NCBI GenBank assembly: GCA_012839095.1
Contig: DUOA01000077.1
Location: 1-64,000, forward strand
Direction of reading: 5' to 3'
From: Clostridiales bacterium
Lineage (GTDB): Bacteria; Bacillota; Clostridia; Caldicoprobacterales; DTU083
Length of the DNA stretch: 64,000 bases
Shown here piece after piece: positions 25,401-47,716 of this stretch (positions are counted from its first letter, which is position 1; each line of letters opens with the position of its first letter). Below the pieces are notes generated by a model, which was given only the letters and a program-made list of their open reading frames with translations, was not told the origin of the DNA and made no database searches. The translations under genes were made by a program, and so were the position numbers.

Positions 25401-26744
25401 GTAAGCGGTGAAATTATTAAGGCTTCCGATGTTGCCATGAATTCCACTGATGAGATTAATCTTGTTGTTGAGGATTTCCAAAGACTATCACATTATAATG
25501 AAGCGTATGACTTTACATTGAATTATCGTTTCTTTAGCCCAACAACTGAGCCGGGAGAAAAATATCCATTGGTAATATTCCTCCATGGTTCCGGAGAACG
25601 TGGAAGCGATAATGATGTCCAGATTCTTGCCAACAAAGGAGCTGTGGTGTGGGCCTTACCTGAAAATCAGGCGGCAAATCCAGCTTTTGTTATTGCTCCA
25701 CAAGCACCGGCAGGTAACAACTGGAATACAGCCAGAGTATATAATTCGCTTTTAAGCCTTATAGATGAATTAGCATCAACACACCCAATAGATGTTGACA
25801 GGATTTATATAACCGGATTGTCGTTGGGTGGTAACGGCACATGGTCCTTAATTCAGAACAATCCTGATTTGTTTGCAGCTGCAATTCCAATATGTGGGAG
25901 AGGTACCCCGGGCAATGTGGAACCAATAAAAGACTTGCCTATTTGGGTATTCCATGCTGAAGATGATGGAACTGTTCCTGTTGAAAGATCGAGAGAAATG
26001 GTTGATGCTCTCAGGGCTATTGGCAGCAATGTCTTGTATACTGAGTATCCGGCAGGCACTGTGCTTCCCAATGCACACTTCTCCTGGGTACCGACTTATG
26101 AGAATCAGGAGGTTATTAACTGGCTTTACTCACAAACAAAGAGTGCCCTCATAAGCCCGGAATTTGTACTTACGTATGAGCCATACATTACAGAAGTCGG
26201 AGAAGAGGTTGTTGTAACTGTAAGTGTAAGGGAGATGGTGGATCTTTACAGCTTCAGAATGGATATTGAGTTTGACCAGGAACTGCTTGAATTCAGGGAA
26301 GTTATATTCAATGAAGTCTTTGATGAGTTGGGATTCGTTCTGTTGCATGATGACAATAAGGACTCCGGGTCCATAGGTTTCCTTGGCACATTGTTGCAGA
26401 ATGCGGATGGCCTGACGGGGGACATTGATATGGCCAGAATCGTTTTTGCTGCCAGAGATACAGCGGGACAGGCATTGACTATACTTCTGAGAGGTTCAGA
26501 AGCAACTGATTCCACTCTTAATGAATATGTAACAGAGAGTGACTATGAAATAAGGATGGCAATAGCCAATTCAGATGTTAACGGGGATGGGAAATTAAGT
26601 CTTTCCGACCTGACTCTGGTTGCCAAAGCGTTCGACATCATTGGGGACATGGGATTGTATGATGAAGCGCTCGATATGGATCATGATGGCGTAATTGACA
26701 TTACCGATATTGCATATGTTGCAAAAAGGCTTTTTATGCAGTAG
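22410..26744 (+). CDS. Secreted multi-domain hydrolase with cohesin-like and dockerin modules
   Basis: Exported protein of 1444 residues. Order: signal peptide (1-33); two homologous beta-sandwich modules, about 36-178 and 191-336, each starting DSL(Y/F)NFETGLHDFW and ending WMDSI(T/S)VGF, probably sugar-binding; FIVAR-like helical module (about 338-413); a clan-A-type hydrolase barrel (about 420-730) with likely acid/base Glu550 in FWEIGNELD and nucleophile Glu671 in FITETSVA, arabinofuranosidase/GH51- or GH39-like; beta domain (about 740-870); an Ig-like plus alpha/beta-hydrolase esterase resembling COG4099 (about 880-1244; Ser1138 in GLSLGG, Asp1185 or 1186, His1223); cohesin-like module (about 1250-1386); C-terminal dockerin with calcium loops DVNGDGKLSLSD and DMDHDGVIDITD. 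It would debranch hemicellulose. A cohesin and a dockerin in one enzyme chain is unusual. The next gene encodes a membrane cohesin, its possible anchor. Confidence 0.9.
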   Translation: MTKRKTSQFLSMVLICTLLITLFVPAGYVFAQAADDSLYNFETGLHDFWHDDGEHGTGGISVSRDNTRSFAGDYSMKITLEGEDYYTLGVQSPPGSVGMTITYRFYIPSGGETLLVPYIMNYSYDWHSDWVWEPPKDEWIELKLEIPSGFNSLERLGVQIWTDIPIEIWMDSITVGFDDDPGDPGDPVEPDDSLFNFETGLHDFWVDEDGVLVRDNTRSYLGEYSVKLAMEGDVFYSIGKESPGSAIQPGMTITYHFFLPEESDPDEVVVISPYCMDRNWGNWQSNWVQLHPRGQWFEVKLKIPENYNTPLARLGVQLWCENPIDIWMDSISVGFDIDKTGLQQKIEDATLLHDSAVEGTEPGQYAAGSKAILMAAITQATSVLLDESATQAVINQAITDLDNAIADFLAAKVPGDGLSITVEYDNVINDIRYPFWGINYVAFWDDIQGSPESMHAIKQTGIDYLRFPGGEPGNWYDWAQETDWTTTDTLALRDYANGVGAAIMLQTNPTTNEVNDNGDKNDPSGEHIADWVQYCIDNNVNVPFWEIGNELDIDLWDPQRLHEFAWYLDIYEEHYDAIKSVDPDAVVMGPASTNTWYWWGVGILDYFLKSFGNVYGNGKVDAVSLHYYPEGSATWDFIKSSAQDEWYRAMDFIQGVLDENDTRDLPLFITETSVAIGTWGGSGTNANMIGALGMADLLGAYRNSGVQSVALFGCIHSASRNWGLLYGVGEDRPAETPTPTYFILPIWTASGDQVLNVTGLDEDTERLSLSSYASRKDDGSVQVVIINKEAAPTNVNISIDGIDIDGASVEIYEMKPKNGSLTDKDVYYNGQLMPDVARELLPGPTEDVVEGEIYTKIVPGYSLTLLDFKTTSDPGFDPAEERVESITLITEVTPYGEKVMAAALEYDEVIDNESLDDSCYSVIGTMLYDSKDPRTVTRVYTNTSPSMTDEPVNGKYVIIELDENDDNASTLEYSFDTWLNFRPEPDYQVYQEKDINTVSGEIIKASDVAMNSTDEINLVVEDFQRLSHYNEAYDFTLNYRFFSPTTEPGEKYPLVIFLHGSGERGSDNDVQILANKGAVVWALPENQAANPAFVIAPQAPAGNNWNTARVYNSLLSLIDELASTHPIDVDRIYITGLSLGGNGTWSLIQNNPDLFAAAIPICGRGTPGNVEPIKDLPIWVFHAEDDGTVPVERSREMVDALRAIGSNVLYTEYPAGTVLPNAHFSWVPTYENQEVINWLYSQTKSALISPEFVLTYEPYITEVGEEVVVTVSVREMVDLYSFRMDIEFDQELLEFREVIFNEVFDELGFVLLHDDNKDSGSIGFLGTLLQNADGLTGDIDMARIVFAARDTAGQALTILLRGSEATDSTLNEYVTESDYEIRMAIANSDVNGDGKLSLSDLTLVAKAFDIIGDMGLYDEALDMDHDGVIDITDIAYVAKRLFMQ

Positions 26745-33171: not shown

Positions 33172-33200
33172 TTTACACATGGGGGTTTTTCAGGTATAAT
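33172..33200 (+). promoter_or_regulatory. Promoter of the 33-47 kb motor/cytoskeleton operon
   Basis: -35 TTTACA (33172-33177), exactly 17 bases, -10 TATAAT (33195-33200); a near-consensus sigma-A promoter. Transcription would start near 33207, giving a leader of about 85 bases. A T-rich stretch and a second TATAAT (33145-33150 region) lie just upstream. Confidence 0.8.
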
Positions 33201-33291
33201 ATCTGAAGATATCATTTTTTCTGGAAAAGAGCTAACAAGGCATATTAGACAATGAATATACATGTTACGGAATGATCTGGGGGGATTACGG

Positions 33292-34917
33292 TTGTCTCAT
33301 GATAAAGGGTTTCGCTCATTGATTATTATTTTCCTATGTTTTTTTTTATTAATGAATTTAGCCGCCTGTATAAAAGCTCCGCAGGAATCCGGCCAATTCT
33401 CATATAACACACTGATATTTGATAAATTCCAACAGAATGAAGAGGACATAACAAAGTACCTGGTCACAGATGAGGTTGCCGAGTACTGTGATATAGACCT
33501 GTTTATCGATGCCACAAAATCCATGCAGGGGTTTGTCAGATTAAGAACACCCGGATTATATGAAGAAGTTCTTCAGAAACTGGAGGAAATATCATTACTG
33601 GCATTCAAGGATCATGTATTCAGCTATTATCGTTTTTGGGACAAACCTGAGGAGATTTCCCGGGAGCTTTTCCGTCAGAGCGCTTTTACAGCAGATTTTT
33701 ATGAGTCATATCATGCTCCTGATGACAACAATCCGGCTAACACAAATCTTGTAAATGTATTCAATAATATTGCATCCAATTATGGGGATATGAGTGATAA
33801 GGAACTGAAAAATCAGATGTCTGTGGTGGTTACCGACATGGTTTCCACCTCTGAATCCGATCGCATTGAAATGGTTAAAACCCTGAATGAATCATTTCTG
33901 CGAAGGGGCATGAGTATAGCTTTGATTGGAATTAAAGCTCAATACAACGGAAGAGTGTACGATATAGTTGCCGACGGCGCCTCTTACCGGTTTGATTATG
34001 AAGGTATCCGTCCTTATTACCTGCTGCTCATCGGCTCCTTACCCAACCTTAGATCATATCTGGAAAAATTCAATCAAACCTTTTCGAATCTCTTCCCGGA
34101 CAAAAAAGAAAGCCTGCTCATATTCAGCCATCTGCTGACAGTTAGGGAAGATACCGGGCGGGCTGCTCTGAACTGGGATGAATCATATGAAGACCCCTTT
34201 ATAAATGCCATAGCGGCTCAGCACTTTTTTTCTCCTTCATTATTGAATGATCCTGATATACAGACGACAGAAACCTATCGTTTTTTCCATGATCTGGTTT
34301 TTGAATTGCCTGAGCTGAGCACACCAGCAGGTACAATAACATTTAATAATCCATTTGCATCCGATCCTGAATCCGTGCTGAGACTGGCAGACTGGGAGCT
34401 GTCCGCCAGGGTGGAGGTGATCAGGGGAAGGGAAGTCCATCCTTCTACCGGTGAGCTTTTGGATGACAACCAGGGTGCACAAGCGGTTATAACAGATGCA
34501 AATAATATGTTGTCCACAGGCGATCCTGTTTTGAAATCAAATAATCAGCGAATAGATGTGGACATAATGTTCAATATGAAAAAAATGCAGAAAGATATGG
34601 CATATCTTGTAAGGGTTGATTTATACGGAAAGCCGGTTGTTATGGAAAGGAATATACCGGATTGGATAAACCAATGGACCATGGATCTGACCGGACTGGC
34701 TGAATGGCAGCAGGATCCAGGCACATTTGAAGGCCATACAACACCCTATCTGAATGCTCTTATTGGGACCTTGTGGAAAAAGGCAGCTGCTGATTCCATG
34801 GAGTATCCAAATTTGCATATGGGCTCTGCAACTATCGGAGTCTTATGTGCTGAATATACGGATATGGAACTGCGCAAAAGATGCCTGGACGCTATCGATG
34901 AACGGAAGCAAAAATAA
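33292..34917 (+). CDS. vWA-like lipoprotein, first gene of the motor/cytoskeleton operon
   Basis: Exported lipoprotein of 541 residues. I start at TTG 33292, 7 bases after GGGGGGAT: this gives a compact signal peptide ending in lipobox MNLAAC (Cys26); the in-frame ATG at 33262 would add ten residues and has no ribosome site. A von Willebrand A-like domain covers about residues 65-250: DLFIDATKSMQGF holds a MIDAS-type D-x-T-x-S, and MSVVVTDMVSTSESDR is the next core strand with an Asp. The C-terminal 280 residues are beta-rich and unassigned (LADWELSARVEVIRG). It would sit on the outer membrane face, near the OmpA-domain protein of the operon. Similarity to vWA is by motif only. Confidence 0.75.
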   Translation: MSHDKGFRSLIIIFLCFFLLMNLAACIKAPQESGQFSYNTLIFDKFQQNEEDITKYLVTDEVAEYCDIDLFIDATKSMQGFVRLRTPGLYEEVLQKLEEISLLAFKDHVFSYYRFWDKPEEISRELFRQSAFTADFYESYHAPDDNNPANTNLVNVFNNIASNYGDMSDKELKNQMSVVVTDMVSTSESDRIEMVKTLNESFLRRGMSIALIGIKAQYNGRVYDIVADGASYRFDYEGIRPYYLLLIGSLPNLRSYLEKFNQTFSNLFPDKKESLLIFSHLLTVREDTGRAALNWDESYEDPFINAIAAQHFFSPSLLNDPDIQTTETYRFFHDLVFELPELSTPAGTITFNNPFASDPESVLRLADWELSARVEVIRGREVHPSTGELLDDNQGAQAVITDANNMLSTGDPVLKSNNQRIDVDIMFNMKKMQKDMAYLVRVDLYGKPVVMERNIPDWINQWTMDLTGLAEWQQDPGTFEGHTTPYLNALIGTLWKKAAADSMEYPNLHMGSATIGVLCAEYTDMELRKRCLDAIDERKQK

Positions 34918-34970: not shown

Positions 34971-35420
34971 ATGACACTTAAAAGTGTGCACAAAAAAATT
35001 ATCTTTTCCCTGCTCTATCTTATAATCGGAGGTATATGCGCTTTTGTACCGGCTTTGCTCAATTTAGGCGATTTTTATCGAATTGTCCGGCCATTGGATG
35101 ATATACCCCGGGAACTGTGGTTGTACCTCTATAATCGTGTATTTGTCATTACTGCAATGCTTATTTGTCTTATAAGTCTGCTTTTCTATCTGCTGGAGGA
35201 GTTTCGCTATGTTCTGGCCAGCTGGTTTCGGTTCTGGCTCCATGTAATTTTACTTTTGATTACTATTATAACCGGCATATTAATAGTCAAATTCTTTTAT
35301 CCCTTCGCTTCAGACATGAATCTGAAAATATTCGGAAGCATGACAGCTGTTTTTTTGGTGCAGTCAATTCTGTATTTGTGGCCGCTGGCACCAACCAACT
35401 ATAAAGGTTTATTCCGGTAA
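34971..35420 (+). CDS. Four-helix membrane protein of the motor/cytoskeleton operon
   Basis: Integral membrane protein of 149 residues with four predicted helices at about 9-31, 57-76, 85-108 and 119-138; charged residues (RIVRPLDDIPRE) lie in the loop between helices 1 and 2. No family recognised. AGGAGGTG lies 8 bases before the ATG. It sits between the lipoprotein and the tubulin-like gene, 25 bases before the latter, so it may link an outer sensor to cytoplasmic partners; that is inference. Confidence 0.8.
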   Translation: MTLKSVHKKIIFSLLYLIIGGICAFVPALLNLGDFYRIVRPLDDIPRELWLYLYNRVFVITAMLICLISLLFYLLEEFRYVLASWFRFWLHVILLLITIITGILIVKFFYPFASDMNLKIFGSMTAVFLVQSILYLWPLAPTNYKGLFR

Positions 35421-35444: not shown

Positions 35445-37028
35445 ATGAGCGTTCATAAGTATCTGATTGGTATCGGAGGAAGCGGTGCCAAGGCAGTGGA
35501 AGCATTTCTCCATCTGAAGGCAGCAGGGTATGGCAATCCGGGCAATCCGACCCATCTGGCAGTTATCGATCCGGATGGTTCCAACTGGAATCTGCAGACC
35601 ATGTATCAGACACTGCTTAAGTATCGCGACGTACAAAAAATCCTGCAGATTGACAACAACTCAAAAGACGAATCCTTCCCCTTGTTCGGGACAAGGTTTG
35701 AAATACAGGAGAAGAGGAGCGGCAGTTCAGATGATATCGGAAGCATGGTCTGGTCTCCTGTTGAGCATGAAGATGCCTCTCTGAATCTGATTTTTGCCCA
35801 GGACCGGATAACGGATATAGAAGGGCAGCTTTTTAAAACTCTTTATACGGAAGAGGAGATGACTGAGAAACTGAAGTACGGCTTCAAGGGACATCCCGGG
35901 ATAGGTTCACTTCTCATATCAAAGGAGTTCCGGCCGGAGCTGGATCCCGAGGATATCGATCGGATACCGGAGAGGGACAGGGACAGGGTATCCTATTGGT
36001 CCCGCCTGCTTGGCAAACAGAGCAGAATAAACAATATTATTGCTGACGGCAGTGATGAAGTCAGGATAATGATAGTTGGTTCAATTTTCGGCGGCACAGG
36101 TGCGGCCGGTGTGCCTACCATAGTAAAGAAGATACATAATTTGTACAGCGAGGCCATTCAGGACGGCAGAATCAAGCTTGGCCTGATACTATTGCTTCCC
36201 TACTTTAAATTTATTCGCAGCAGCAGCGGGATGCAGGATGGCCAGCTGTACGCTGAGGCAGATGATTTTATCCTGAACAGCCGTTATGCTCTCAGGTATT
36301 ATAAGGAAGCAGGCCTTACTGATTATGTAAACTCAATATATGTGTTGGGTGATAATCACTACGAAGATATGGATTTTGCCGTAGGAGGCAGTGAACAGAA
36401 AAACAAGGCCTTAATAGCTGAAACTCTTGCTGCTGTGGCAGTGGATCATTTTTATAATGCCGGGATAGAAAACAATAAGAATCTGTTCTATGCCAACCGG
36501 GGTGGAACAGTCGACATGGACGAAACCGGGCAGAAAGTTGATATAAAGGAAATTCCATACGGCGATGAGCTGCGGAAAGCTATGCTTGATATGGTCCGCT
36601 TTGGCATAGTTTACAACAAGTTCAGTGCTCTTATGAAAGAAATCACAGCTAATTTCAAATTGCGTCAGCAGCATCCCTGGTCAACCGGTTATTTCAGGGA
36701 ACTGAAAAGCAACTGGCGTCATAAAGCTTCAGACGCTGACAGAAACAGGGTAAGGGACGAAATGGCGGTTATAGAATCATACCTGGACCGTTATCTTGAC
36801 TGGACAGATGACATTACGGACAGGCTGAACATATTGAATCGAACCAAAATGAGAGACATGCGTCAGACCACAGCAGAATTTAATCTGGGTGATCTGGTAG
36901 GCGATGACTCAGAAAAACTGACCTGGAGAGATATCCAAATGAAGGTGCGCGACACAGGCGGGAAAGGCAGGGAGAAAGGCATTAACCAATTGTGTAAGGC
37001 GATTTACGATATTGTAAGGTTATCTTAA
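35445..37028 (+). CDS. Tubulin/FtsZ-like GTPase-fold protein
   Basis: Cytoplasmic protein of 527 residues with a tubulin-like nucleotide-binding fold. The N-terminus HKYLIGIGGSGAKAVEAFLH matches the first glycine-rich loop of the family, LAVIDPDGSN a following strand, and IVGSIFGGTGAAGVPTIVKK at about residues 208-227 corresponds to the GGGTG(T/S)G tubulin signature, here GGTGAAG. The rest (about 240-527) is helical and does not resemble FtsZ. It is nearest in type to the bacterial Tubulin_2 (PF13809-like) group rather than FtsZ, TubZ or BtubA. The ATG at 35445 follows AGGTGG. Whether it polymerises or hydrolyses GTP cannot be told. Confidence 0.85.
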   Translation: MSVHKYLIGIGGSGAKAVEAFLHLKAAGYGNPGNPTHLAVIDPDGSNWNLQTMYQTLLKYRDVQKILQIDNNSKDESFPLFGTRFEIQEKRSGSSDDIGSMVWSPVEHEDASLNLIFAQDRITDIEGQLFKTLYTEEEMTEKLKYGFKGHPGIGSLLISKEFRPELDPEDIDRIPERDRDRVSYWSRLLGKQSRINNIIADGSDEVRIMIVGSIFGGTGAAGVPTIVKKIHNLYSEAIQDGRIKLGLILLLPYFKFIRSSSGMQDGQLYAEADDFILNSRYALRYYKEAGLTDYVNSIYVLGDNHYEDMDFAVGGSEQKNKALIAETLAAVAVDHFYNAGIENNKNLFYANRGGTVDMDETGQKVDIKEIPYGDELRKAMLDMVRFGIVYNKFSALMKEITANFKLRQQHPWSTGYFRELKSNWRHKASDADRNRVRDEMAVIESYLDRYLDWTDDITDRLNILNRTKMRDMRQTTAEFNLGDLVGDDSEKLTWRDIQMKVRDTGGKGREKGINQLCKAIYDIVRLS

Positions 37029-37048
37029 TTTGACAGGGGGCGTTATAT

Positions 37049-40000
37049 ATGAAATACTGGCTGCCGACAATTAATCCTGATGCTTCACTTGGCGGGGCTC
37101 CGGAAGGAGGAAAACTGGTCAACACCAGCAGTGATAAGATAGAGGTTATATCTGATAATCTTGTTGTGAACAATAACAATCCCAAGGATTTACGCTCCAT
37201 ACCCAATGTATGGGCAAAGGCACTGTCTTGTCAGATGTTTTTAAGGGATATGATGTTTGCACCTGAGAAGGCAACAAGTTATTGCAAACGTGTCATCGGC
37301 GAATGGCGGGGGCTGCTGGCTGCATTGGTACTAAGAAAACATTACAAACTGGACATGAGCATAGGCTTTGTCAGATTGGATGACAGCCATGAAGGCCCGT
37401 TTCTGCAGGCAGCCATGTCCCTGCTGCCCTCCCATACAGCCTTCGAAGGTGACAGCTGGCAGAGAATCTCCCTGCTGTATTGCAATATTAAAGTAGACAA
37501 TCAGACGATTAAATACCCCATCGGCATGACCTCTCCCACCACCATGGTCAGCGCAGCAGCAGCACAGGCTCAAAGTCTGCCCATAAGCTGGCATAAAAAC
37601 GGTTCTTTTGTCGATCCTCTTACCCTGACTGCTCCTGATGAAAGGCTGACAAATGCTGATATTATCGTTCTTGCCTATTGGCTGAAACATGCAATAGAGA
37701 TTCTGGAAAAAAGGGAAAGAAACAGGGATAACGACTTTGCCGCAGCTCTTATCTGGAATCTCAGAGACTATTACAGTGAGATTTGCAGCCTTTATCCGGA
37801 TTATGCCTTTTACAAGGTTCCGGATGAAGACGAAGAAAACCCCATGATTACCTTTGCTGAGACTATAGAGGAACCTGAAAGAGATCCCATGTTATCACTG
37901 CTTTTTGTCCGGTATGCAATGAATTTTATTGGCAGGGTTCCAAGTCAGCTGATGTTTGAGATTAACGGCAGTTATCATATAATGGAACACAGCCTGTCAG
38001 ATTCAAATCCCGTCGTTTTCGGCATATATGACTACGCCACGCTCAAACGAAATCCGGAAATGGTAAGAAGGGCAATCAGAGACAGAAATGCCGGTATGCA
38101 TCTGTACCGGATGGAAGATTTATTTCTCCCGAATCTTGCATATATGGTTTCCCTGGAGAAAGATGCAATGCCCGAGCCCTTGAGAAACAGGGGGCTGACC
38201 AGTGAAACTCCCTATGTGGATGCAACCTTTAAGAAAAATGTAGTAACAACAACAGCCTTGTTTGGACTGGTAGTGGACGATACCATAGTGGAATCAAGGG
38301 CATTCATTCTGCCCCTGTCAGAGCTGGCCTTTAACTTAGTGGAAGACATCCGGGCAGATGTTTCCATTGAGATCCATGATGAGGATGTGGTAGTTGCTGC
38401 ACGGGTAAAATTACTTGACGGAAACAAGGTTGAGATTAAGAAAACCTACAAATCGGATGAGCTGGTACGAATAAATGAGAAGCCCATAGCTGCAATATGG
38501 CCCAGATACCGGATACCCGGCTGGGAACACTATTACTTTATGAGTGCAGAAAATGAAACACGGGAGTTTCATTTCGAGCCGGCAGCTGATTCTAATTCCG
38601 TAATGGAGCAATATAAGAAACTGAATGAAGAGGGTCATCCAAATACAAAGCCCTATGTCAGATACTATAAGTGTGATAAGTATCCAAGGGCTTTATCCCT
38701 TAAGTGGAATGACAGGCATGCAGGTTACCTGCTGCCTGCGGAGCCGGAACAAAAAGCAGCCGGCCAGGACCCCAAAACAGTTGTCTTTGGCATAGATTTT
38801 GGAACCTCATCATCAACCATCTATGGCAACACTATTAACGAACAGGGAGAATTGCAGATTCCGTTTAAGGTTAATTTCATGGATACCCTGGCGGTTCTCT
38901 GCTGTGATGTCCAGGCTATAAACCAGCTGATTGAGTTTTTCATGACTCCCTTTGAAGTAATATCTCCCTTCCCCACTGTGGTGCATGCCATGAAAGGAGA
39001 AGGAGCAAGAGAACCTTACATGGATGCAAATCTGTTCTTTCATAAAACAGATCCATATCAGGGCGGGATCAGCTATGACAATTCCGCACGGGTTGGATAT
39101 CTGAAAACACAGGTAAAATGGACTTCCAAGGTCGGAGATCAGCTTCTTTCAAGGACAGTGATTGCCCAGATAGTTATGATGGCAGTGCTGTATGCCCGTT
39201 TGAACGGTTATAGGAAGATCAAGTGGCAGTTCTCATACCCGCTTTCGCTCAACAATCCCAATGAATTCATGAGCATGTGCAAGGAATGCGTAAATATGTT
39301 CGGTGGAGCCGATGCGCTGGAGACTACAATTGAAAACGCTGTTACGCTGATGACGGAAAGTGAAGCTGTGGCACGATATTTTGTTCACAGTGATTATGTG
39401 ATTATGCTAAGGAATATTACCATAGTGGATATAGGAGGCGGCAGCTCGGATGTCTTCCTGCACCTTGAACATGGAGACAGCATGAAGAGTCTGCAGACTT
39501 CCATACGCTACGGGGCAAGAAACATGCTGCTTGATCTGCTGTATGACAACAGGCAGTTCCTTTCGGATCTGATCAACAGGACAGTAAACAGAAATCAGGG
39601 GCTTATGAATAATTATACCATCAACCAGGCACTGCTGGATCCGGAACTGGTCAGAGACAAGGATGAGTTTTACATGCATATGGAAAACCTCCTGTCGGTT
39701 CAAATCGGGGCCGGCAAGACCTTTGGAAACCTGCTCAGCGATTATATAATAGCCAATTACGATACTGACTTTGGAAACTTTGGAGCCAAGCTTAAAATGT
39801 TCCGGACAATAATAGCATTTTATGTCAGCTCTCTCTTCTATTACTGCGGCATGCTGATTCGTTTCTCAAGAAAAGAACATGCTGATTCAGCAATAAACAG
39901 CCCCTTTATCGGCATTGCCGGTAACGGAAGCAATATACTTGACTGGATCAGAACAGGCTTCTACGATGAGCAGGCAGTGTCCGAGCTTCTGAGGGCATTT

Positions 40001-40561
40001 ATGAATGAGGGAATCGGTTCAATGGGAGAAGGTGCTGTATACAAAGCCGTCAGAAGTAAAAATCCGAAGGAAGAAGCTTCAAAGGGTCTGGTTTCAAAAC
40101 CCTTCACCTATGAAGAAAGAGAGCTTGAGTCGGATAAGATTGCCGAAGTCGTATTGGCGGGAGAGTCATTTGTTGTCAGCACGGAAGAGGGAGAACAGGT
40201 TGTAGACGCAATGACCAATCTGGCTGCACTTCCGGAAGAGTATTGGCTGAAGCAGTGGAAATACAAGGATTTGGCAGAAATCGACAGATTCATTGCATTA
40301 TTTAACAGACAGGCAGCTGCTAACGGTTTCTATCCCGTTGAGCTCACCCTGGGCAGAACCGGAGGCTTTATCAGCCTGTCCAGAACGGAACTGCTGGAAG
40401 CATTGAATCGCGAGCTTGCTTCCCGCAGGATGGTGCAGGGCGGCGCCCAGGGAAATCAGCGTCCACAGGTTGCATTTGCGGCTGCGGAATCCTTGTTTAT
40501 TAAGGCGGTTAATACGATTATTACCTGGCAGCTTCTGCGTATGTGGCGTTCCATGAACTAA
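37049..40561 (+). CDS. Large protein with actin/Hsp70-type ATPase core
   Basis: Cytoplasmic protein of 1170 residues with no signal peptide. An N-terminal region of about 575 residues (IPNVWAKALSCQMFLRDMMF, GEWRGLLAALVL, PIGMTSPTTMV) is unrecognised. An actin/Hsp70-fold ATPase follows: phosphate-1 FGIDFGTSSSTIYGNT at about 579-594, phosphate-2 TIVDIGGGSSDVFLHLE at about 791-807, adenosine motif IGIAGNGSNILDW at about 953-965. The core differs from DnaK, MreB, FtsA and ParM in length and inserts; Pfam SrfB-type proteins are the closest comparison I can suggest, untested. AGGGGGC precedes the ATG. The gene directly follows the tubulin-like gene, pairing the two cytoskeletal folds in one operon. 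Confidence 0.85.
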   Translation: MKYWLPTINPDASLGGAPEGGKLVNTSSDKIEVISDNLVVNNNNPKDLRSIPNVWAKALSCQMFLRDMMFAPEKATSYCKRVIGEWRGLLAALVLRKHYKLDMSIGFVRLDDSHEGPFLQAAMSLLPSHTAFEGDSWQRISLLYCNIKVDNQTIKYPIGMTSPTTMVSAAAAQAQSLPISWHKNGSFVDPLTLTAPDERLTNADIIVLAYWLKHAIEILEKRERNRDNDFAAALIWNLRDYYSEICSLYPDYAFYKVPDEDEENPMITFAETIEEPERDPMLSLLFVRYAMNFIGRVPSQLMFEINGSYHIMEHSLSDSNPVVFGIYDYATLKRNPEMVRRAIRDRNAGMHLYRMEDLFLPNLAYMVSLEKDAMPEPLRNRGLTSETPYVDATFKKNVVTTTALFGLVVDDTIVESRAFILPLSELAFNLVEDIRADVSIEIHDEDVVVAARVKLLDGNKVEIKKTYKSDELVRINEKPIAAIWPRYRIPGWEHYYFMSAENETREFHFEPAADSNSVMEQYKKLNEEGHPNTKPYVRYYKCDKYPRALSLKWNDRHAGYLLPAEPEQKAAGQDPKTVVFGIDFGTSSSTIYGNTINEQGELQIPFKVNFMDTLAVLCCDVQAINQLIEFFMTPFEVISPFPTVVHAMKGEGAREPYMDANLFFHKTDPYQGGISYDNSARVGYLKTQVKWTSKVGDQLLSRTVIAQIVMMAVLYARLNGYRKIKWQFSYPLSLNNPNEFMSMCKECVNMFGGADALETTIENAVTLMTESEAVARYFVHSDYVIMLRNITIVDIGGGSSDVFLHLEHGDSMKSLQTSIRYGARNMLLDLLYDNRQFLSDLINRTVNRNQGLMNNYTINQALLDPELVRDKDEFYMHMENLLSVQIGAGKTFGNLLSDYIIANYDTDFGNFGAKLKMFRTIIAFYVSSLFYYCGMLIRFSRKEHADSAINSPFIGIAGNGSNILDWIRTGFYDEQAVSELLRAFMNEGIGSMGEGAVYKAVRSKNPKEEASKGLVSKPFTYEERELESDKIAEVVLAGESFVVSTEEGEQVVDAMTNLAALPEEYWLKQWKYKDLAEIDRFIALFNRQAAANGFYPVELTLGRTGGFISLSRTELLEALNRELASRRMVQGGAQGNQRPQVAFAAAESLFIKAVNTIITWQLLRMWRSMN

Positions 40562-40582: not shown

Positions 40583-41443
40583 ATGCTGTACATACTGATT
40601 GCCGATACGGCGGCTTCCGGAGCGGTTTCCGGCAAGGGAGGCTTAATGCAGCTCATACTCCTTATAGCACTTATTATTCTCGTTGCTGCCCTGATTGCTC
40701 TTACCATCCTTATCCAGAGAGGACAGGCTAAGACAAACTGGGATATAAGAAAGCAGCTGGACAATAAATTCTTTGAACTGAAAGAAAAAATTGAAGTAAT
40801 GGAAAGAACACGCTACGCTCGGGCGAATCCCGGATTAAACTCCCGAAAAGATACCCTGCCCGACAGGGAGCTGGATGATACAGTAAACTCCAAAATAGGG
40901 GAGTTTGCCTTTGAATTCAGAAATGAGATGAAGGAGTTTATAAGGGAAGAAATAGAGAAACAGCTTGCAAAGAATGTGAAGATGCCGGAGGTTTACAATG
41001 CTTATTCAGGCAAACAGGATTTGCCTCCATCTCCCGGTTTTACGGATGATGAAGCTGAGCTTCGCAATCTCTATAACAACTACCTGGAGCTGACCGATGA
41101 GCAGAAAAATAAATATTCGGAAAAATTTAAATTTCAACAGATTGCCGTAAACACATACATGTCCGGTGCCATGACCAGCGCCGAACTGATGGACTCCAAT
41201 GAAAGGAATGCTCATTTTATAAGGACCGTTCCTAAAAACGGTATTTGTTATGTTATTCCGGTTCCAACAAGGTCAAAGCTGATGCAGGATCTGGAGCTGG
41301 AGAAATACCGTCCTTTATTTAATATAAGCGGTGCCCTTGCAGGAGGAAAACGTAAGGTAACACTGCATAAGCCTGCTCTTATTGTTCCGGCCGGAAGCAA
41401 TCGCTACAGCCTTAAGGAAAAAGGAGCGCTGGAGGCAATATAG
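40583..41443 (+). CDS. Membrane-anchored coiled-coil protein of the operon
   Basis: Protein of 286 residues with a single N-terminal helix at about 21-45 (LILLIALIILVAALIALTIL), then a charged helical stretch likely to form a coiled coil (about 50-140: RKQLDNKFFELKEKIEVMER, FEFRNEMKEFIREEIEKQL), and a C-terminal globular part ending in NRYSLKEKG. No known family. The large body is predicted cytoplasmic. GGGGAGG precedes the ATG, and the gene starts 21 bases after the actin-like gene. It could tether that ATPase to the channel encoded next; inference. Confidence 0.8.
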   Translation: MLYILIADTAASGAVSGKGGLMQLILLIALIILVAALIALTILIQRGQAKTNWDIRKQLDNKFFELKEKIEVMERTRYARANPGLNSRKDTLPDRELDDTVNSKIGEFAFEFRNEMKEFIREEIEKQLAKNVKMPEVYNAYSGKQDLPPSPGFTDDEAELRNLYNNYLELTDEQKNKYSEKFKFQQIAVNTYMSGAMTSAELMDSNERNAHFIRTVPKNGICYVIPVPTRSKLMQDLELEKYRPLFNISGALAGGKRKVTLHKPALIVPAGSNRYSLKEKGALEAI

Positions 41444-41512: not shown

Positions 41513-43180
41513 ATGCAGCTTAATATAAAGGAAATGTTGATCAATCAGGAGCCATTCGGCCAGGGAATCTGCCTCTTTATCACACTTTTATTTCTCATTT
41601 TCATGGCTGCGGACATAATCAGGATGCTGTGGTTTCAGAAACTTAACCGGTGTCTCATAAGGAAAAAAGAAAGCCCGGAAGAGGAACCGGGATCCTTTGA
41701 GCATGAGTATCTACAGAACGTCTATGATCAATATGTAGCAGCAAAGCAGGAGAATGCAAATGCAGCTGATCTTGATTCCATGCTGGACAAGGAAATACCT
41801 GTCAGCATGCGGATAAGTAAGAACATAATATCGCTCTTTCCCGGCTTAATGACGGCTCTGGGCCTTCTTGGCACTTTTTACGGGCTGTCAGCCGCAATTA
41901 TTAGGTTGATTACGGAATTTAACCAGCATTTTGTTTTTTCAAATTCAGGAATGACCATGCAGTCTTTCAAGGATCTGGTAGATATACTGCGTTCTCCCCT
42001 GGTGAGCATGAGCACTGCCTTTACAACCAGCCTGCTGGGTTTATTTATGTCTATCCTGGCAAACCTTGTACACAGCTTGTTATTTTCGCATAATGAAGAA
42101 AAAACGTTTGCCTGCATAGTTGATTTTTTTGAAAATGAAATTGGAATAAAGTACGAAAGCGGGCTGGACAGGGCTATAATCAAGTTGAAAGACGGGCTGC
42201 AGGAAAGCATAAATAAGTTTTCCGGTAATGTACAGAATCTTTCTCTTAATCTGGAGTTCTCAGCTGAAACAATCGACCGGTCCGTGTCCGAACTGAATCA
42301 GGCAATAGACGGATTGCATGGGCCGATTGAGCATTTCCGTGGCAGCATAGAAATATTCAGCGACAGCTGCAGTACCCTGGATGAGCAGGTGGAAGCCGTT
42401 AACATGATCACTGCCCGTTTAAGTGAGGAATTAGGCCAGACCCTTCATCAGGGACTCAAAGAATTTGTCGGCAGAATGGAGCAGGTGACGGAGCAATTTA
42501 CAGACAATCTGGATATGGCCTCATCGGCCTTCAGTGATGCCATGGTAATTGCTGTTAACAATATGTATGAACTGATTGGAGGCATGAATGACAATCTTGC
42601 AGCCTCAACGGATTCCAATCGGGAAATGAAGGAAGCTTTATCATCTTTGACCAGCATATATAAGAATTATGAAAAGAGTACAGATTCAGTACAACAGGTA
42701 ATGGATAACAGCTACAGGCTGCTTCTGGATTTACAGGGAAATATCCGTGATCTTTCAATAAATGTTTCAAACAGAATGAGAGAGGCATTTGACGATGCTG
42801 TAACCACCACCATGAATGAATCAGCCGTCCGCCTGGCAGATCACTTAAGACAGGAAACAGAACAGATGAACAGGGCTGTTTCGGAGACTAATAATATGCT
42901 TTTGGAGCTTAGGGAGAATCTGAACGGCTCCTTACATGGTCTGGGAATGAGGTTAACCGAATTCGTGGACACCATGCAGCAGGGAAATGCAGATTCCCAG
43001 GAATTCTTTATACAGACCCTTGATGAGATGACCAATAAAGCCGCTGCCAGCTACGATGATTTCCACAGAAACATCATAGACCTTCATGAAACTGCAGACC
43101 TGCTTCAAAAGGCCCTAAACTATGTAATCGGTATACAAACCCAGAGTGCAGAAGGAGGACAAACCTTTGATGACATATAA
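41513..43180 (+). CDS. MotA/TolQ/ExbB (ZorA-like) channel with long cytoplasmic tail
   Basis: Stator-type membrane protein of 555 residues. Helix 1 at about 16-40; then the MotA/TolQ/ExbB core, SLFPGLMTALGLLGTFYGLS (about 107-126) and MSTAFTTSLLGLFMSILANL (about 166-185), the two pore-lining helices of the family. Residues about 200-555 form a heptad-like helical tail with repeated Asp/Asn/Ser/Leu patterns, as in ZorA of the Zorya defence system and unlike the compact MotA, TolQ or ExbB. With the protein encoded next it should form an ion-driven rotary unit. AAGGAGA lies before the ATG. Its end overlaps the next gene by 11 bases. Confidence 0.88.
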   Translation: MQLNIKEMLINQEPFGQGICLFITLLFLIFMAADIIRMLWFQKLNRCLIRKKESPEEEPGSFEHEYLQNVYDQYVAAKQENANAADLDSMLDKEIPVSMRISKNIISLFPGLMTALGLLGTFYGLSAAIIRLITEFNQHFVFSNSGMTMQSFKDLVDILRSPLVSMSTAFTTSLLGLFMSILANLVHSLLFSHNEEKTFACIVDFFENEIGIKYESGLDRAIIKLKDGLQESINKFSGNVQNLSLNLEFSAETIDRSVSELNQAIDGLHGPIEHFRGSIEIFSDSCSTLDEQVEAVNMITARLSEELGQTLHQGLKEFVGRMEQVTEQFTDNLDMASSAFSDAMVIAVNNMYELIGGMNDNLAASTDSNREMKEALSSLTSIYKNYEKSTDSVQQVMDNSYRLLLDLQGNIRDLSINVSNRMREAFDDAVTTTMNESAVRLADHLRQETEQMNRAVSETNNMLLELRENLNGSLHGLGMRLTEFVDTMQQGNADSQEFFIQTLDEMTNKAAASYDDFHRNIIDLHETADLLQKALNYVIGIQTQSAEGGQTFDDI

Positions 43181-43973
43181 ACGGACAGGCTACAGGCAGA
43201 GCAGGGAAAACAAAGTCGATTACTGGCCGTCTATGGTGGATATCATGTCATCATCGGCTTTGATTCTCTTTTTTGCCATGGCATTGTTCGCTGTAATAGC
43301 TTCCTATAATTCATTGAGATACAGAGTCCTGACTGAAGAGCTGGAAAGAGAAAAACAGATACAGGAAGACGAAAGCACAAGGCTGGAAGAAAGGCACAGG
43401 CAGCTGGTTGATGATATAGAGCGGATTATTGATGCCCGTGAAAACATGTATGACACACTGATGACCGAGCTTAACAAACAGCTGGGACCGGGCACGGTTA
43501 TGCGGGATGAGACCCGGTTATACGTTGATGCGGAGACCCTGTTTGAATTCAACGAATGGAAACTGACAAGGGACGGCAGGGAACTGGCCAAAGAACTGGG
43601 AAAGGCATTCATGAAAATTGTCAAGGAACAACAGCGGCAGATAGAAAACAGCGAAAACAGCGTCAGGATATTAAACATAGAAGTAATCGGTCACACGGAT
43701 AACAGGGGCGCCGAAAGCAGGAACCGGCTGCTTTCCGCACAACGTTCCGGTGTCTTTGTGGATTATATGTTATCAGAACTGTCCGAAGAGGATCTACTTA
43801 AATATGGTTCCTTCTACAAATCATCCAGCATGTCCAAGTATTCACCCATAGCCGGAACGGTTATATCTCAGACAGATGAGGAAAGAGCCAGAAATAGGAG
43901 AATCGAGTTCATCATCAACTTTTCGGATGAAGATTTCAACTACCTGCTTGAAAAGTACTCCGAAGGTGGGTGA
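43170..43973 (+). CDS. MotB/ZorB-like stator protein with OmpA peptidoglycan-binding domain
   Basis: Single-pass protein of 267 residues. Basic N-terminus, then WPSMVDIMSSSALILFFAM with Asp24 at the membrane entry, matching the essential proton-carrying Asp of MotB and ZorB. A short coiled coil (about 50-100) leads to an OmpA-like domain (about 116-255) with VIGHTDNRGAESRNRLLSAQ and ARNRRIEFIINF, which binds peptidoglycan. The ATG at 43170 follows AAGGAGG and lies inside the end of the ZorA-like gene, so the two are translationally coupled and likely made in fixed ratio. With the ZorA-like channel it forms the motor; here the operon lacks zorC, zorD and zorE homologues. Confidence 0.92.
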   Translation: MTYKRTGYRQSRENKVDYWPSMVDIMSSSALILFFAMALFAVIASYNSLRYRVLTEELEREKQIQEDESTRLEERHRQLVDDIERIIDARENMYDTLMTELNKQLGPGTVMRDETRLYVDAETLFEFNEWKLTRDGRELAKELGKAFMKIVKEQQRQIENSENSVRILNIEVIGHTDNRGAESRNRLLSAQRSGVFVDYMLSELSEEDLLKYGSFYKSSSMSKYSPIAGTVISQTDEERARNRRIEFIINFSDEDFNYLLEKYSEGG

Positions 43974-46900
43974 GGCATTTGTACCATGTAATCCATGATT
44001 CCTTATTTGGCAGTTCATTGTCTGAGGATATTGAAAGGCTTACATGTCCGTCCTTTATAGGCAGGCTCGAGCTATTGGGTGAAAAATACTGGGCTGAAAG
44101 CATGAGCAGGCTGCACGATGAAGAAAAACCTGCTGATGCCGTATTGTCCATGCGGGAGTATTTGGATCATCCGGCGGCTGTCAGAATTGAAACAGAGAAT
44201 TCTGATGAGATCCTGCTGAAAACAGAGGATTTCTCAGCTGTGTCCGGGGCTGCTGAGCAGACAGTCGTCCACGGGCATTTCAGTCTGAGGCTGACCGGGT
44301 CTTACAAGCTGGACATAAAGTTTTTAACGGTCCATATCAGGCATACCGATAATGTATTTGATATCAGGCGAGAAGTTACAAGTCGGAATACCATGACTGT
44401 CTACTACTCAGTGCTGGCAGAACCATCCCTGCTCTATCAGGGTGAACAGAAGGAGCTTATTACCCTGTCGATTCCGGGCAGCAGTGTTCAGTATCGTATC
44501 CGGATCCGGCCTGAAGAATTTGAAAATGAAAACCACCTGGACAGATGCAGGACCTTTGAGGAGCTGAAAAAACACTTTGATGAAAAGCCCTCTCTTGCAG
44601 CAGAGTGTTTGAACCCATCCAATCACTCCTATAACGACTTGATAAAGTGGCACAGGGATAATGAGCTTAATACATGGCCATTGGAACTTATTCGGAATAT
44701 GCCGGCAGGCAGTGATGATGAATGCCGTGCAAAGCAGATCAGCTTCTTCAGGCTGCTGGGTCTGCCGGGCAGAGAAGACAAACTTCAGAGCCTGCCCATG
44801 GAAGGTGCAGCTGCAGGCAGCAGGAAAAGGGGCAGAAAGGAATATCAGAACAGGGACATCAGGCTCCTTGCCAGATTGGGCGGAAAAGAAGTGAAATCGG
44901 TAGGCATAAGCAACCGCGGGCTTCGCGGCTTTCGCCTTTTCAGGCAGTACTTTGTTATTAAAAACCCTTTCTTTTTTACCGAGGACAGCACTGGTGTAAG
45001 CTTTTACAATGGAAGCGGGTTTATATACCATAGGTACAGGCTGCGCAGAAGAAAGTTAGGCAGAAATGTACCCCTGTACAATCAGAAGGACAGCTTGTAC
45101 AACTGGAGGGATGATCTGGAGAAGGCTCTCAGGCTCCTGAGAATTCACCTGTTTACATCTCCCAATATGAACAGGGTAGAGCGCAGGGTTCAGAGAAAGG
45201 CCATTATAAGCGTATGCAGGAGGATTATGGCTCATATGCCGGGCAGCTCATTGGCCGTCAGGCTTGCTATACGTATTATCCTCCTGTCAGGGTTGAAAGA
45301 TACCAATACTCCTTTAAGAAAATGGCAGCTGCTGCATCTTTTCCCCAACTGGGATGTTCTTGATATAAGGTATGCATATAAGCTGTTGCATGAGCTGGAT
45401 GTACAGAAACGCGTATTAAATATTGAAAATCTTCCTCTTTTGTGGTACATGGGCCAGACGGAAAGCAACCCCATGCTTATGGCAGATCTGAAAAACATGA
45501 TTCTTATAAGGACGGTTGCTTTCTTTAGAATCATGCAGCGTGATTTAAAGCTGATGCAGGCAGAAAAACCGGGCATGTATGAACTTTTGTGGAATAAATA
45601 CAGGCTTATACTCCAGGATTGCATGTTCAGCCAGGGAGAAACTGAAGCTGTTGTTCTGAAGCTTTTCAGCAGTGCCGGCAAGGGTGAGCTGCCCTTCCTC
45701 TTCTGGCGCTTGCTGCCTCAGCCTTCGACAGCGGCCGTATACCTGAATTATATAACCGAGCAGAATTTTCGGCCTGAACATTTCAGTGATTACCAGTCCA
45801 TACTTCTGACGTCCGAAGCCCGATACTGGGAGGAAAGCCCGCTTAGAAAACTGATTATGGAATATCTGCCGGCGGTAAACAAGCCGGAAGGAATGCTGAT
45901 TGAGCTGCTGCAAAGCTCAGATACTAAAGATTATCCTTATATTAGTCTGCTAAATCCTGCATTGGATGATGAATCGTTTTTTATAGCTATAAACCAATGC
46001 AGAACCATCAGCAGCAGTCTGGCCGATGAATGTGAGAAAAGACTGTCGAGTGCGGAGCGGCCATGGCCTATGAATGCCTGGATAGCTGCTTTCAGGCTGA
46101 CCCGCTTGTATTATATATCGGCAGATAAGCTGGCCCGGCAGAAAAATCTGCAGGGAAGAATCAGCCTTCGGTTCTGCTATCTGGACAAGGATGCCGGGAA
46201 TCCGCCGATCATTATATGGCCCGGTACAAGAAGTCTCTGTTTTCTGGACAAACCGGACCCATATGCAGTATGGGTGGAACCCCTTTGTAAGTTTTTCCCG
46301 GCAGACAGGATAGACAGATTAGAAAGGAAGATAAAGAATTCAGCCCTGAAGCTGCTGATAGATAATGCCATGGCCGGAAAAAACGGTAATCTGATAGGCT
46401 GCTTAAAAGCGCTGTCAACTCACTCCGAAGATGAAATATCCGGCATCTGGTCCACCATTCATCCTGCAATACAAAAAATACTCAGCCTTTCTGTTCGGTA
46501 TTACAATGATCCGGAAAAGCCGGGGGAAATCAGCTGCGATTCCGTCAGCATGGACTGGACCGAGGTCAGCAGGCTGGCATTGAAACTGCTGCGTTACTAC
46601 CGGCCGTCCGGATACACCGGAATGATACGTACTATGTACAGGGGCATGATACCGGGAAAAGCGGAGGATATCAGGATTAAGCTGGTTGATCTTCTGGTCC
46701 GGCTGGATCTAAGCACCCTGCTGGATAAGGATCTGGACAGTAAGGAATGCAACATATGGGCTCAGGCTGTATATTTCAGGAACCAGTATAATAAGAATAA
46801 CCTGTCGGAAATAGATTTTCGTGAATACATTGCTCATAACGGCCTGTATCACGATAAACCAAATGATATACTCTGCAGTCTGTGTGTTTCCTATTTGAAG

Positions 46901-47371
46901 GAAACAGCAATGTATTATCCATATGGTCAATATCTGGTTCATCATTGGGACTACCTTTCAGTGGAAATTGTGAATGATGCTGAAATTGTACGTTATCTGA
47001 TGCAAACAACGGATGACTACGAGTTCAAACTAAAACAATACCTGAATAAGGGTGAATACAGTGCTGTAAGCATTCGTACCCTTGCTCAGGCATGGAGACA
47101 GTATTCACGGCTGACGCCTGTTATGGAGGAGTATATAAGCAGACTGATATACAGAAGGCGCAAAAATGAGCTGGCTATGATATTTGATCTGCTAACCCAC
47201 TATTATCGGAAATATCCTGAGAAGTTTCTATTTCTGCTTGAGCTCGAATACCAATGGAAGCACCGCAGCATGGATGTGCCGTCAGAATTTGAAGATCTGG
47301 TTAAAAGCAAAGCCTATCAGGAATTTTTGTCATGGCTGCAGCATGAAAACAACCTTCTACTATATGTATAG
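43970..47371 (+). CDS. Very large protein of unknown function, last gene of the operon
   Basis: Protein of 1133 residues with no signal peptide or membrane helix, hence probably cytoplasmic. GTG start at 43970 overlaps the TGA of the previous gene (GTGA), giving tight coupling. The N-terminal 200 residues look beta-rich (HGHFSLRLTGSYKLDIKF, ELITLSIPGSSVQYRIRIRP), and the remainder is largely helical, Leu/Arg/Tyr-rich, perhaps alpha-solenoid-like (KLLHELDVQKRVLNIENLPL). No catalytic motif, Walker box, nuclease motif or known domain was recognised. Its position after the motor genes suggests a structural partner or the system's effector. The frame is intact over 3.4 kb with normal base composition, so it is a real gene. 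Confidence 0.85.
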   Translation: MRHLYHVIHDSLFGSSLSEDIERLTCPSFIGRLELLGEKYWAESMSRLHDEEKPADAVLSMREYLDHPAAVRIETENSDEILLKTEDFSAVSGAAEQTVVHGHFSLRLTGSYKLDIKFLTVHIRHTDNVFDIRREVTSRNTMTVYYSVLAEPSLLYQGEQKELITLSIPGSSVQYRIRIRPEEFENENHLDRCRTFEELKKHFDEKPSLAAECLNPSNHSYNDLIKWHRDNELNTWPLELIRNMPAGSDDECRAKQISFFRLLGLPGREDKLQSLPMEGAAAGSRKRGRKEYQNRDIRLLARLGGKEVKSVGISNRGLRGFRLFRQYFVIKNPFFFTEDSTGVSFYNGSGFIYHRYRLRRRKLGRNVPLYNQKDSLYNWRDDLEKALRLLRIHLFTSPNMNRVERRVQRKAIISVCRRIMAHMPGSSLAVRLAIRIILLSGLKDTNTPLRKWQLLHLFPNWDVLDIRYAYKLLHELDVQKRVLNIENLPLLWYMGQTESNPMLMADLKNMILIRTVAFFRIMQRDLKLMQAEKPGMYELLWNKYRLILQDCMFSQGETEAVVLKLFSSAGKGELPFLFWRLLPQPSTAAVYLNYITEQNFRPEHFSDYQSILLTSEARYWEESPLRKLIMEYLPAVNKPEGMLIELLQSSDTKDYPYISLLNPALDDESFFIAINQCRTISSSLADECEKRLSSAERPWPMNAWIAAFRLTRLYYISADKLARQKNLQGRISLRFCYLDKDAGNPPIIIWPGTRSLCFLDKPDPYAVWVEPLCKFFPADRIDRLERKIKNSALKLLIDNAMAGKNGNLIGCLKALSTHSEDEISGIWSTIHPAIQKILSLSVRYYNDPEKPGEISCDSVSMDWTEVSRLALKLLRYYRPSGYTGMIRTMYRGMIPGKAEDIRIKLVDLLVRLDLSTLLDKDLDSKECNIWAQAVYFRNQYNKNNLSEIDFREYIAHNGLYHDKPNDILCSLCVSYLKETAMYYPYGQYLVHHWDYLSVEIVNDAEIVRYLMQTTDDYEFKLKQYLNKGEYSAVSIRTLAQAWRQYSRLTPVMEEYISRLIYRRRKNELAMIFDLLTHYYRKYPEKFLFLLELEYQWKHRSMDVPSEFEDLVKSKAYQEFLSWLQHENNLLLYV

Positions 47372-47532: not shown

Positions 47533-47703
47533 ATGATTAAAGAGAAATGCTGTAAATCCGCCCTCGCCGAATTATGTAAGGAGTTTTTGCTGCATCTGCA
47601 GGTTATGAAACAGAAAGGTCTGATTAGTGAAGCGGAGTATGAAAGCCACAGTCTAAAGAAAATACAATTTCTGAATGAATTTGAAATGGATAGGCCGGTT
47701 TAG
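47533..47703 (+). CDS. Small SHOCT-like protein (56 aa)
   Basis: Short gene with GGGGAGGGG before the ATG. The peptide (MIKEKCCKSALAELCKEF, LLHLQVMKQKGLISEAEYES, and KKIQFLNEF) carries the GLISEAEYE pattern of SHOCT (short C-terminal) oligomerisation domains, Lxx(K)xGLI(S/T)xxE(F/Y). The stop codon lies in the loop of a terminator hairpin. It starts 161 bases after the large operon; whether it belongs to that unit is open. Function unknown. Confidence 0.7.
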   Translation: MIKEKCCKSALAELCKEFLLHLQVMKQKGLISEAEYESHSLKKIQFLNEFEMDRPV

Positions 47704-47716
47704 CCGGTCTTTTTTA
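47692..47716 (+). terminator. Terminator overlapping the SHOCT-like gene stop
   Basis: AGGCCGG (47692-47698) and CCGGTCT (47704-47710), 7-bp stem with one G-U pair and a 5-base loop TTTAG containing the stop codon, followed by TTTTTATT. Confidence 0.75.

Follow-up and report, generated by a model that had tools for sequence, protein, structure and literature searches.

The question raised by this locus is why a tubulin-like gene stands directly upstream of a gene for a giant protein with motifs of the actin/Hsp70 class. The textbook case of an actin-fold protein working together with a tubulin-fold protein is FtsA-FtsZ. In the window, i.e., the whole stretch of 64,000 nucleotides that we analyzed, the open reading frames, the start codons and the 20-base gap between the two genes are as initially annotated, and the statement that neither gene is FtsA or FtsZ holds, with the host's own FtsA (C24:71955) and FtsZ (C24:72612) genes located side by side on contig C24. 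The initial annotation also treated the adjacency of the two folds as a rarity outside FtsA/FtsZ; a pair outside FtsA/FtsZ is indeed real, but rather than being an isolated curiosity it forms the middle of a conserved five-gene cassette, comprising eight genes in the window copy (Table 1), that is present in at least four phyla.

Table 1. Features of the window copy of the cassette and its borders
Feature	Position	Strand	Description
Promoter-like site, TTTACA-17-TATAAT	33172..33200	+	11/12 consensus match only; upstream of cassette
Lipoprotein with vWA-like MIDAS motif (DATKSM ... VTD)	33262..34917	+	551 aa; cassette gene 1
Small membrane protein	34971..35420	+	149 aa, 4 hydrophobic segments; cassette gene 2
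Tubulin/FtsZ-superfamily GTPase (predicted)	35445..37028	+	527 aa; cassette gene 3; Tubulin_2 matches, AlphaFold model, invariant sites
Actin/Hsp70-fold ATPase (predicted)	37049..40561	+	1170 aa; cassette gene 4; family profile, structure model, invariant sites
Module N1 of actin protein	37049..37798	+	aa 1-250; presence follows that of tubulin
Module M of actin protein	38036..38764	+	aa 330-572; beta-rich; retained beside ATPase core in all variants
Module C of actin protein	38777..40558	+	aa 577-1170; actin/Hsp70 nucleotide-binding core and C-terminal extension
Single-TM coiled-coil protein with C-terminal beta "E domain"	40583..41443	+	286 aa; cassette gene 5
ZorA/MotA-like motor subunit, long coiled-coil tail	41513..43180	+	555 aa; PADLOC ZorA2 2.9e-11, MotA_ExbB 8.1e-5
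ZorB/MotB-like subunit, OmpA-type peptidoglycan-binding domain	43146..43973	+	275 aa; PADLOC ZorB1 4.9e-19, OmpA 1e-5
Protein of unknown family	43970..47371	+	1133 aa; start overlaps ZorB-like stop
Terminator-like hairpin with T tail	47692..47710	+	consensus match only

The first gene of the pair encodes a divergent member of the tubulin/FtsZ superfamily. Both motifs on which the tubulin-like label was based are present, GIGGSGAKA in the region of residues 9-17 and GGTGAAG at residues 216-222. The window protein matches Pfam Tubulin_2 (PF13809) at 1.7e-5 with 24.7 bits, i.e., just below the curated cut-off of 27 bits, and the Tubulin_2 search proposed in the initial annotation matched 38 of the 38 tubulin relatives scanned (best 1e-11). 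Comparison of the AlphaFold model (pLDDT 78, pTM 0.86) with the PDB placed tubulin, FtsZ and TubZ on top (best E 6e-4, prob 1.00), with low TM-scores of 0.2-0.36. Alignment of 38 sequences showed that G11, G12, G14, S213 and F215-A220 are invariant, i.e., that the glycine-rich T1 and T4 loops of the nucleotide site are kept in all relatives; the T7 loop, which is catalytic in tubulins, could not be identified in this alignment.

The 1170-aa protein holds a predicted actin/Hsp70-fold ATPase core, with the DFGTSSS (583-589), DIGGGSSD (794-801) and GNGSN (958-962) motifs all present as annotated. Searched alone against Pfam and NCBIfam, the window protein gave no significant match, and HSP70 Pfam models matched neither this protein nor any of its 39 relatives. 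The family profile matched the BeeR actin (8r2n, 1.2e-4), MreB and FtsA in the PDB, with the matching region around the phosphate-2 motif, and weak Pfam matches to FtsA and MreB were present in 30 and 26 of the 39 relatives, respectively. A structure model of middling confidence (pLDDT 70, pTM 0.63) matched Hsp70 nucleotide domains (E 1.9e-9) and BeeR (1.9e-8), again with low TM-scores. Analysis of the 39 aligned sequences located the phosphate-1, phosphate-2 and adenosine motifs within the fold and showed D583, F584, G585, T586, K690, E770, D794, G796, G797, D801, G958 and N959 to be invariant; we take D583, K690, E770 and D794 to correspond to Hsp70 D10, K71, E175 and D199, based on the order of residues without superposition. 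The link to SrfB (SrfABC operon), the large protein family suspected earlier, is not supported: with E<=0.1 as the limit, the Pfam SrfB model matched none of the 39 relatives.

The N-terminal 575 residues of this protein were described as having no recognised domain. We likewise found no library domain there, but the region is not featureless: two modules, N1 and M, are conserved within it. Of 55 actin proteins that carry N1, 53 adjoin a tubulin gene; one exception starts 287 bases from its contig end, and a single genome with a fragmented assembly (G460) contains N1 without a detected tubulin. None of the seven N1-less proteins made of M and C is next to a tubulin gene; two of these seven are truncated 5' by a contig border. 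Because N1 and tubulin co-occur, we read N1 as the probable tubulin-docking module of the actin protein. In two of the N1-less proteins, a C14 caspase domain replaces N1 at the N-terminus and is thereby fused to the actin-like core, i.e., in Microcystis viridis (L029:8129-11992; 5.7e-13), where a HATPase_c_4-like segment is also present, and in Planktothrix rubescens (L035:8642-11941; 9.1e-13), in whose genome no tubulin of the paired family was found. These fusions suggest a version of the tubulin-actin system with a regulated protease. Second, N1-less actin-like paralogues are also located a few kb downstream of the pair at L022:15678-17870, L024:16597-18795 and L052:15263-18247.

The core cassette runs from a lipoprotein with a vWA-like motif through a small membrane protein to the tubulin, the actin and a membrane coiled-coil protein, and the same order occurs in Cyanobacteria, Poribacteria, Omnitrophota (with the cassette divided between two contigs), Negativicutes (Phascolarctobacterium) and a second genome of the window's phylum, where it is seen in a complete genome (L100). 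Our scan for relatives, limited to a single genome for each species, found 49 loci, mostly from cyanobacteria but also from Poribacteria, Clostridia, Phascolarctobacterium and Omnitrophota; at nearly all of them the tubulin gene comes right before the actin gene. The tubulin gene is directly upstream of the actin gene in 53 relatives from at least four phyla, and plasmid copies of the pair are present in Picosynechococcus and Gloeothece. Approximately 11 of 79 Poribacteria and 1 of 145 Omnitrophota contain the pair. A search of the window's phylum matched 53 of 399 genomes, but since 51 of these cover only a short stretch around the phosphate-2 motif and lie in frames as long as a normal FtsA or MreB, the true count is 2 of 399. 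In one relative from Clostridia (L038:8365-9815, which is the same as locus L008:12246-13696) the tubulin is in two frames, the actin is intact and the lipoprotein motif is degenerate, i.e., a decayed gene or a sequence error.

Where one gene of the pair is present, the other nearly always is: in 146 cyanobacterial genomes, 15 contain both, one contains only the actin and none contains only the tubulin (Fisher 1.5e-19). Comparison of the tubulin and actin trees across 36 loci gave r = 0.97 (0.98 for cyanobacteria alone), a value reached in 0 of 2000 permutations, although these p-values overstate independence because the sequences are related by descent. Co-linearity and mirrored trees would also follow from transfer of the operon without physical contact between the proteins. 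That the two genes are chance neighbors with misread motifs, as the weakness of the single-sequence library matches might suggest, is refuted by adjacency at 53 loci, by invariant nucleotide sites and by matching folds, and we give this reading practically no chance.

The proteins encoded around the pair point to the membrane. The lipoprotein has a hydrophobic segment (19-37) ahead of an LAAC motif with a nearly invariant Cys36, and its D[GA][ST]xSM and TD motifs are conserved in nearly all of 34 relatives and are compatible with a vWA MIDAS site; neither a Pfam vWA match nor PDB profile support was found, and the vWA assignment is one of motif. It matches the cluster-3 profile at 3.5e-87, a profile that has the window copy among its 40 members, and the gene is inverted in many cyanobacteria. 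The 149-aa protein is the counterpart of cluster 2 by position and topology, with no sequence similarity to that cluster detected. The E domain of the coiled-coil protein, which we delimited by eye because its sequence recurs at C-termini, occurs in one to several copies. In Lyngbya confervoides (L052), a second actin protein begins with an E-like domain, which stands where N1 would otherwise precede the actin core, and at L081 an E-like domain follows a vWA-like domain in a gene adjoining an actin. Downstream of the second actin gene of L. confervoides, WD40-like repeats are joined to an E-like domain (L052:18375-19859).

Two motor genes extend the cassette in the window, Phascolarctobacterium and Poribacteria, and PADLOC models of ZorA and ZorB matched at 9 of 9 loci; this identity is one of profile homology, with scores below the NCBIfam subfamily cut-offs. 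Cyanobacterial cassettes have no motor genes, so that the motor is not part of the core. ZorAB of Zorya has been shown to be an ion-driven complex of the MotAB type that binds peptidoglycan through one domain and extends a long tail into the cytoplasm (PMC11890865), and by analogy the ZorAB-like pair of the cassette may work in the same way. In Poribacteria (L013-L018, L049, L056), the ZorB-like gene is followed by one for a membrane protein of 320 aa (cluster 8) whose GGDCEDT motif is transglutaminase-like. The 1133-aa protein that ends the window operon is found only in this copy, with no library match and no relative in the other cassette loci. The proposal that the pair lies on one transcript is plausible at the level of sequence, given a shared strand, small gaps, and promoter-like and terminator-like ends that are consensus matches only, with 41 promoter-like sites found against 29.4 expected in shuffles.

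We compared the cassette with described systems, and our search of openly licensed full texts found no paper describing the tubulin-actin pair. FtsA-FtsZ shares with it the adjacency of an actin-fold and a tubulin-fold gene but differs in that the cassette has the order tubulin then actin, other membrane partners, and a host that encodes FtsA-FtsZ elsewhere. Nearest among described systems are the FtsZl1-vWA-OmpA operons and the DO-GTPase/GAP1-N2 conflict systems, not all of whose defining features are present in the cassette. The former, as presented in the main text of Makarova and Koonin 2010 (PMC2875224), likewise combine a distant tubulin of the Tubulin_2 group with a vWA-type membrane protein (in the cassette, a lipoprotein that is vWA-like by motif) and an OmpA-type protein (in the cassette, in the window copy) in a predicted membrane-associated machine; neither an actin/Hsp70 protein nor a ZorA-type motor is named among the operon members in that main text, although the supplement may list some members. 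FtsZl1 itself is there typically extended by a long coiled-coil region and a C-terminal domain made of helices, with 1051 aa in the type protein, unlike the paired tubulin, which is of ~500 aa (527 aa in the window) with no long coiled coil in its model. Long FtsZl1-like Tubulin_2 proteins (open frames of 912-1106 aa) are encoded by separate genes in several genomes that bear the paired tubulin, and their coexistence argues that the latter is a distinct short subfamily. The DO-GTPase/GAP1-N2 systems (Kaur et al. 2020, PMC7159879) include a theme with tubulin and vWA and another with HSP70, are membrane associated, and were proposed to assemble on a trigger; they are built on a TRAFAC GTPase and GAP1, with tubulin and HSP70 in separate themes where the cassette has its two folds adjacent and inherited together, and neither TRAFAC DO-GTPase nor GAP1 gave a Pfam or NCBIfam match in the eight operon proteins. 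Zorya has in common with the window copy a MotA-family subunit with a long coiled tail and a peptidoglycan-binding ZorB-like subunit, whereas the cassette opens with the tubulin and actin genes and contains no ZorC, ZorD or ZorE. BeeR (PMC11929497), the top PDB profile match and a good fold match to the ATPase core, is a 386-residue chain without N1 and M, and its paper mentions no tubulin or operon.

Taken together, this evidence fixes a predicted membrane-associated system with two NTPases, and its recurrence in cyanobacteria, Poribacteria, Omnitrophota and Firmicutes suggests an undescribed envelope machine apart from FtsA/FtsZ. The reading we favor, with confidence somewhat short of even, is an envelope-anchored, nucleotide-switched tubulin-actin complex with the pair at its heart, coupled to a motor where ZorAB is present. 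In such a complex, the tubulin-like GTPase would assemble or switch at the cytoplasmic face, the actin/Hsp70-like ATPase would bind it via N1, and modules M and C would bind the membrane coiled-coil proteins at their E domain, with the lipoprotein sensing or binding a ligand on the outer side of the membrane. Where the motor is present, ions flowing through the peptidoglycan-anchored ZorAB-like stator would drive or gate the complex via the ZorA tail. As FtsA and FtsZ are encoded separately, the job of the complex is likely to be sensing or reshaping the envelope rather than cell division. Caspase fusions and kinship to ZorAB favor a link to stress or conflict, and ordinary neighborhoods and a constant core favor envelope housekeeping. 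We propose only tentatively that this second, co-inherited tubulin-actin lineage is one composite envelope cytoskeleton that has a ZorAB-type motor in some phyla and swaps N1 for a caspase upon loss of the tubulin.

An alternative that we consider somewhat unlikely is a conflict system, i.e., an anti-phage or cell-suicide system in which damage to the envelope is sensed by the lipoprotein or by the ZorAB-like motor, with assembly of the tubulin and actin, or the caspase swapped in, as the effector arm. Tubulin-bearing conflict systems have already been proposed (Kaur et al. 2020, PMC7159879), and homology to ZorA and ZorB, the caspase-actin fusions of M. viridis and P. rubescens, the plasmid copies and the patchy spread (16 of 146 cyanobacteria, 2 of 399 genomes in the window's own phylum) would all suit such a role. 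However, neither ZorC, ZorD or ZorE nor another known effector was found in the window operon using Pfam, NCBIfam and PADLOC, and the core genes are constant rather than variable. The window copy lies between SbcCD and two-component/sugar-uptake genes, and a location in defence islands is rejected, with PADLOC matches near cassettes comparable to those in matched control regions of the same genomes (122 versus 84 models, a weak test as models and not proteins are counted). An origin in phage is also rejected, as the tubulin matched nothing in phage records and no relative was found in viral contigs.

It is rather unlikely that the large protein is instead an Hsp70-like, chaperone-type regulator that assembles or disassembles the tubulin without forming an actin filament. 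Hsp70 nucleotide domains are its best structural matches, the invariant E770-S771 segment resembles the EPTAAA segment of Hsp70, and the large N-terminal modules could impede actin-type packing; yet the sequence profile matches the filament-forming actins BeeR, MreB and FtsA and not HSP70, and the cassette encodes no Hsp70 substrate-binding domain, J-protein or GrpE. A surface motility or transport device, with an ion-driven stator pulling an actin/tubulin track as in gliding motors, would account for ZorAB/MotAB-type subunits beside both cytoskeletal folds, but is improbable given that cyanobacterial cassettes have no motor genes and that no adhesin or gliding genes were recognised around the window copy.

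If the envelope-anchored tubulin-actin complex is correct, a widespread, mobile second pair with intact nucleotide-site motifs would provide a clean system in which to study cooperation of the two folds, and an ion-driven motor would be tied to a bacterial cytoskeleton. Relatives are present in culturable cyanobacteria, e.g., Picosynechococcus, where the cassette could be deleted; in strain PCC 7003 it is plasmid-borne. The GC content of the window operon (0.448) lies between that of its flanks (0.433 and 0.474), and composition is uninformative on recent import. Elsewhere in the window, positions 22410-26744 encode a protein of 1444 aa that combines esterase, FIVAR, cohesin and dockerin-like domains and is a possible cellulosome-like component.
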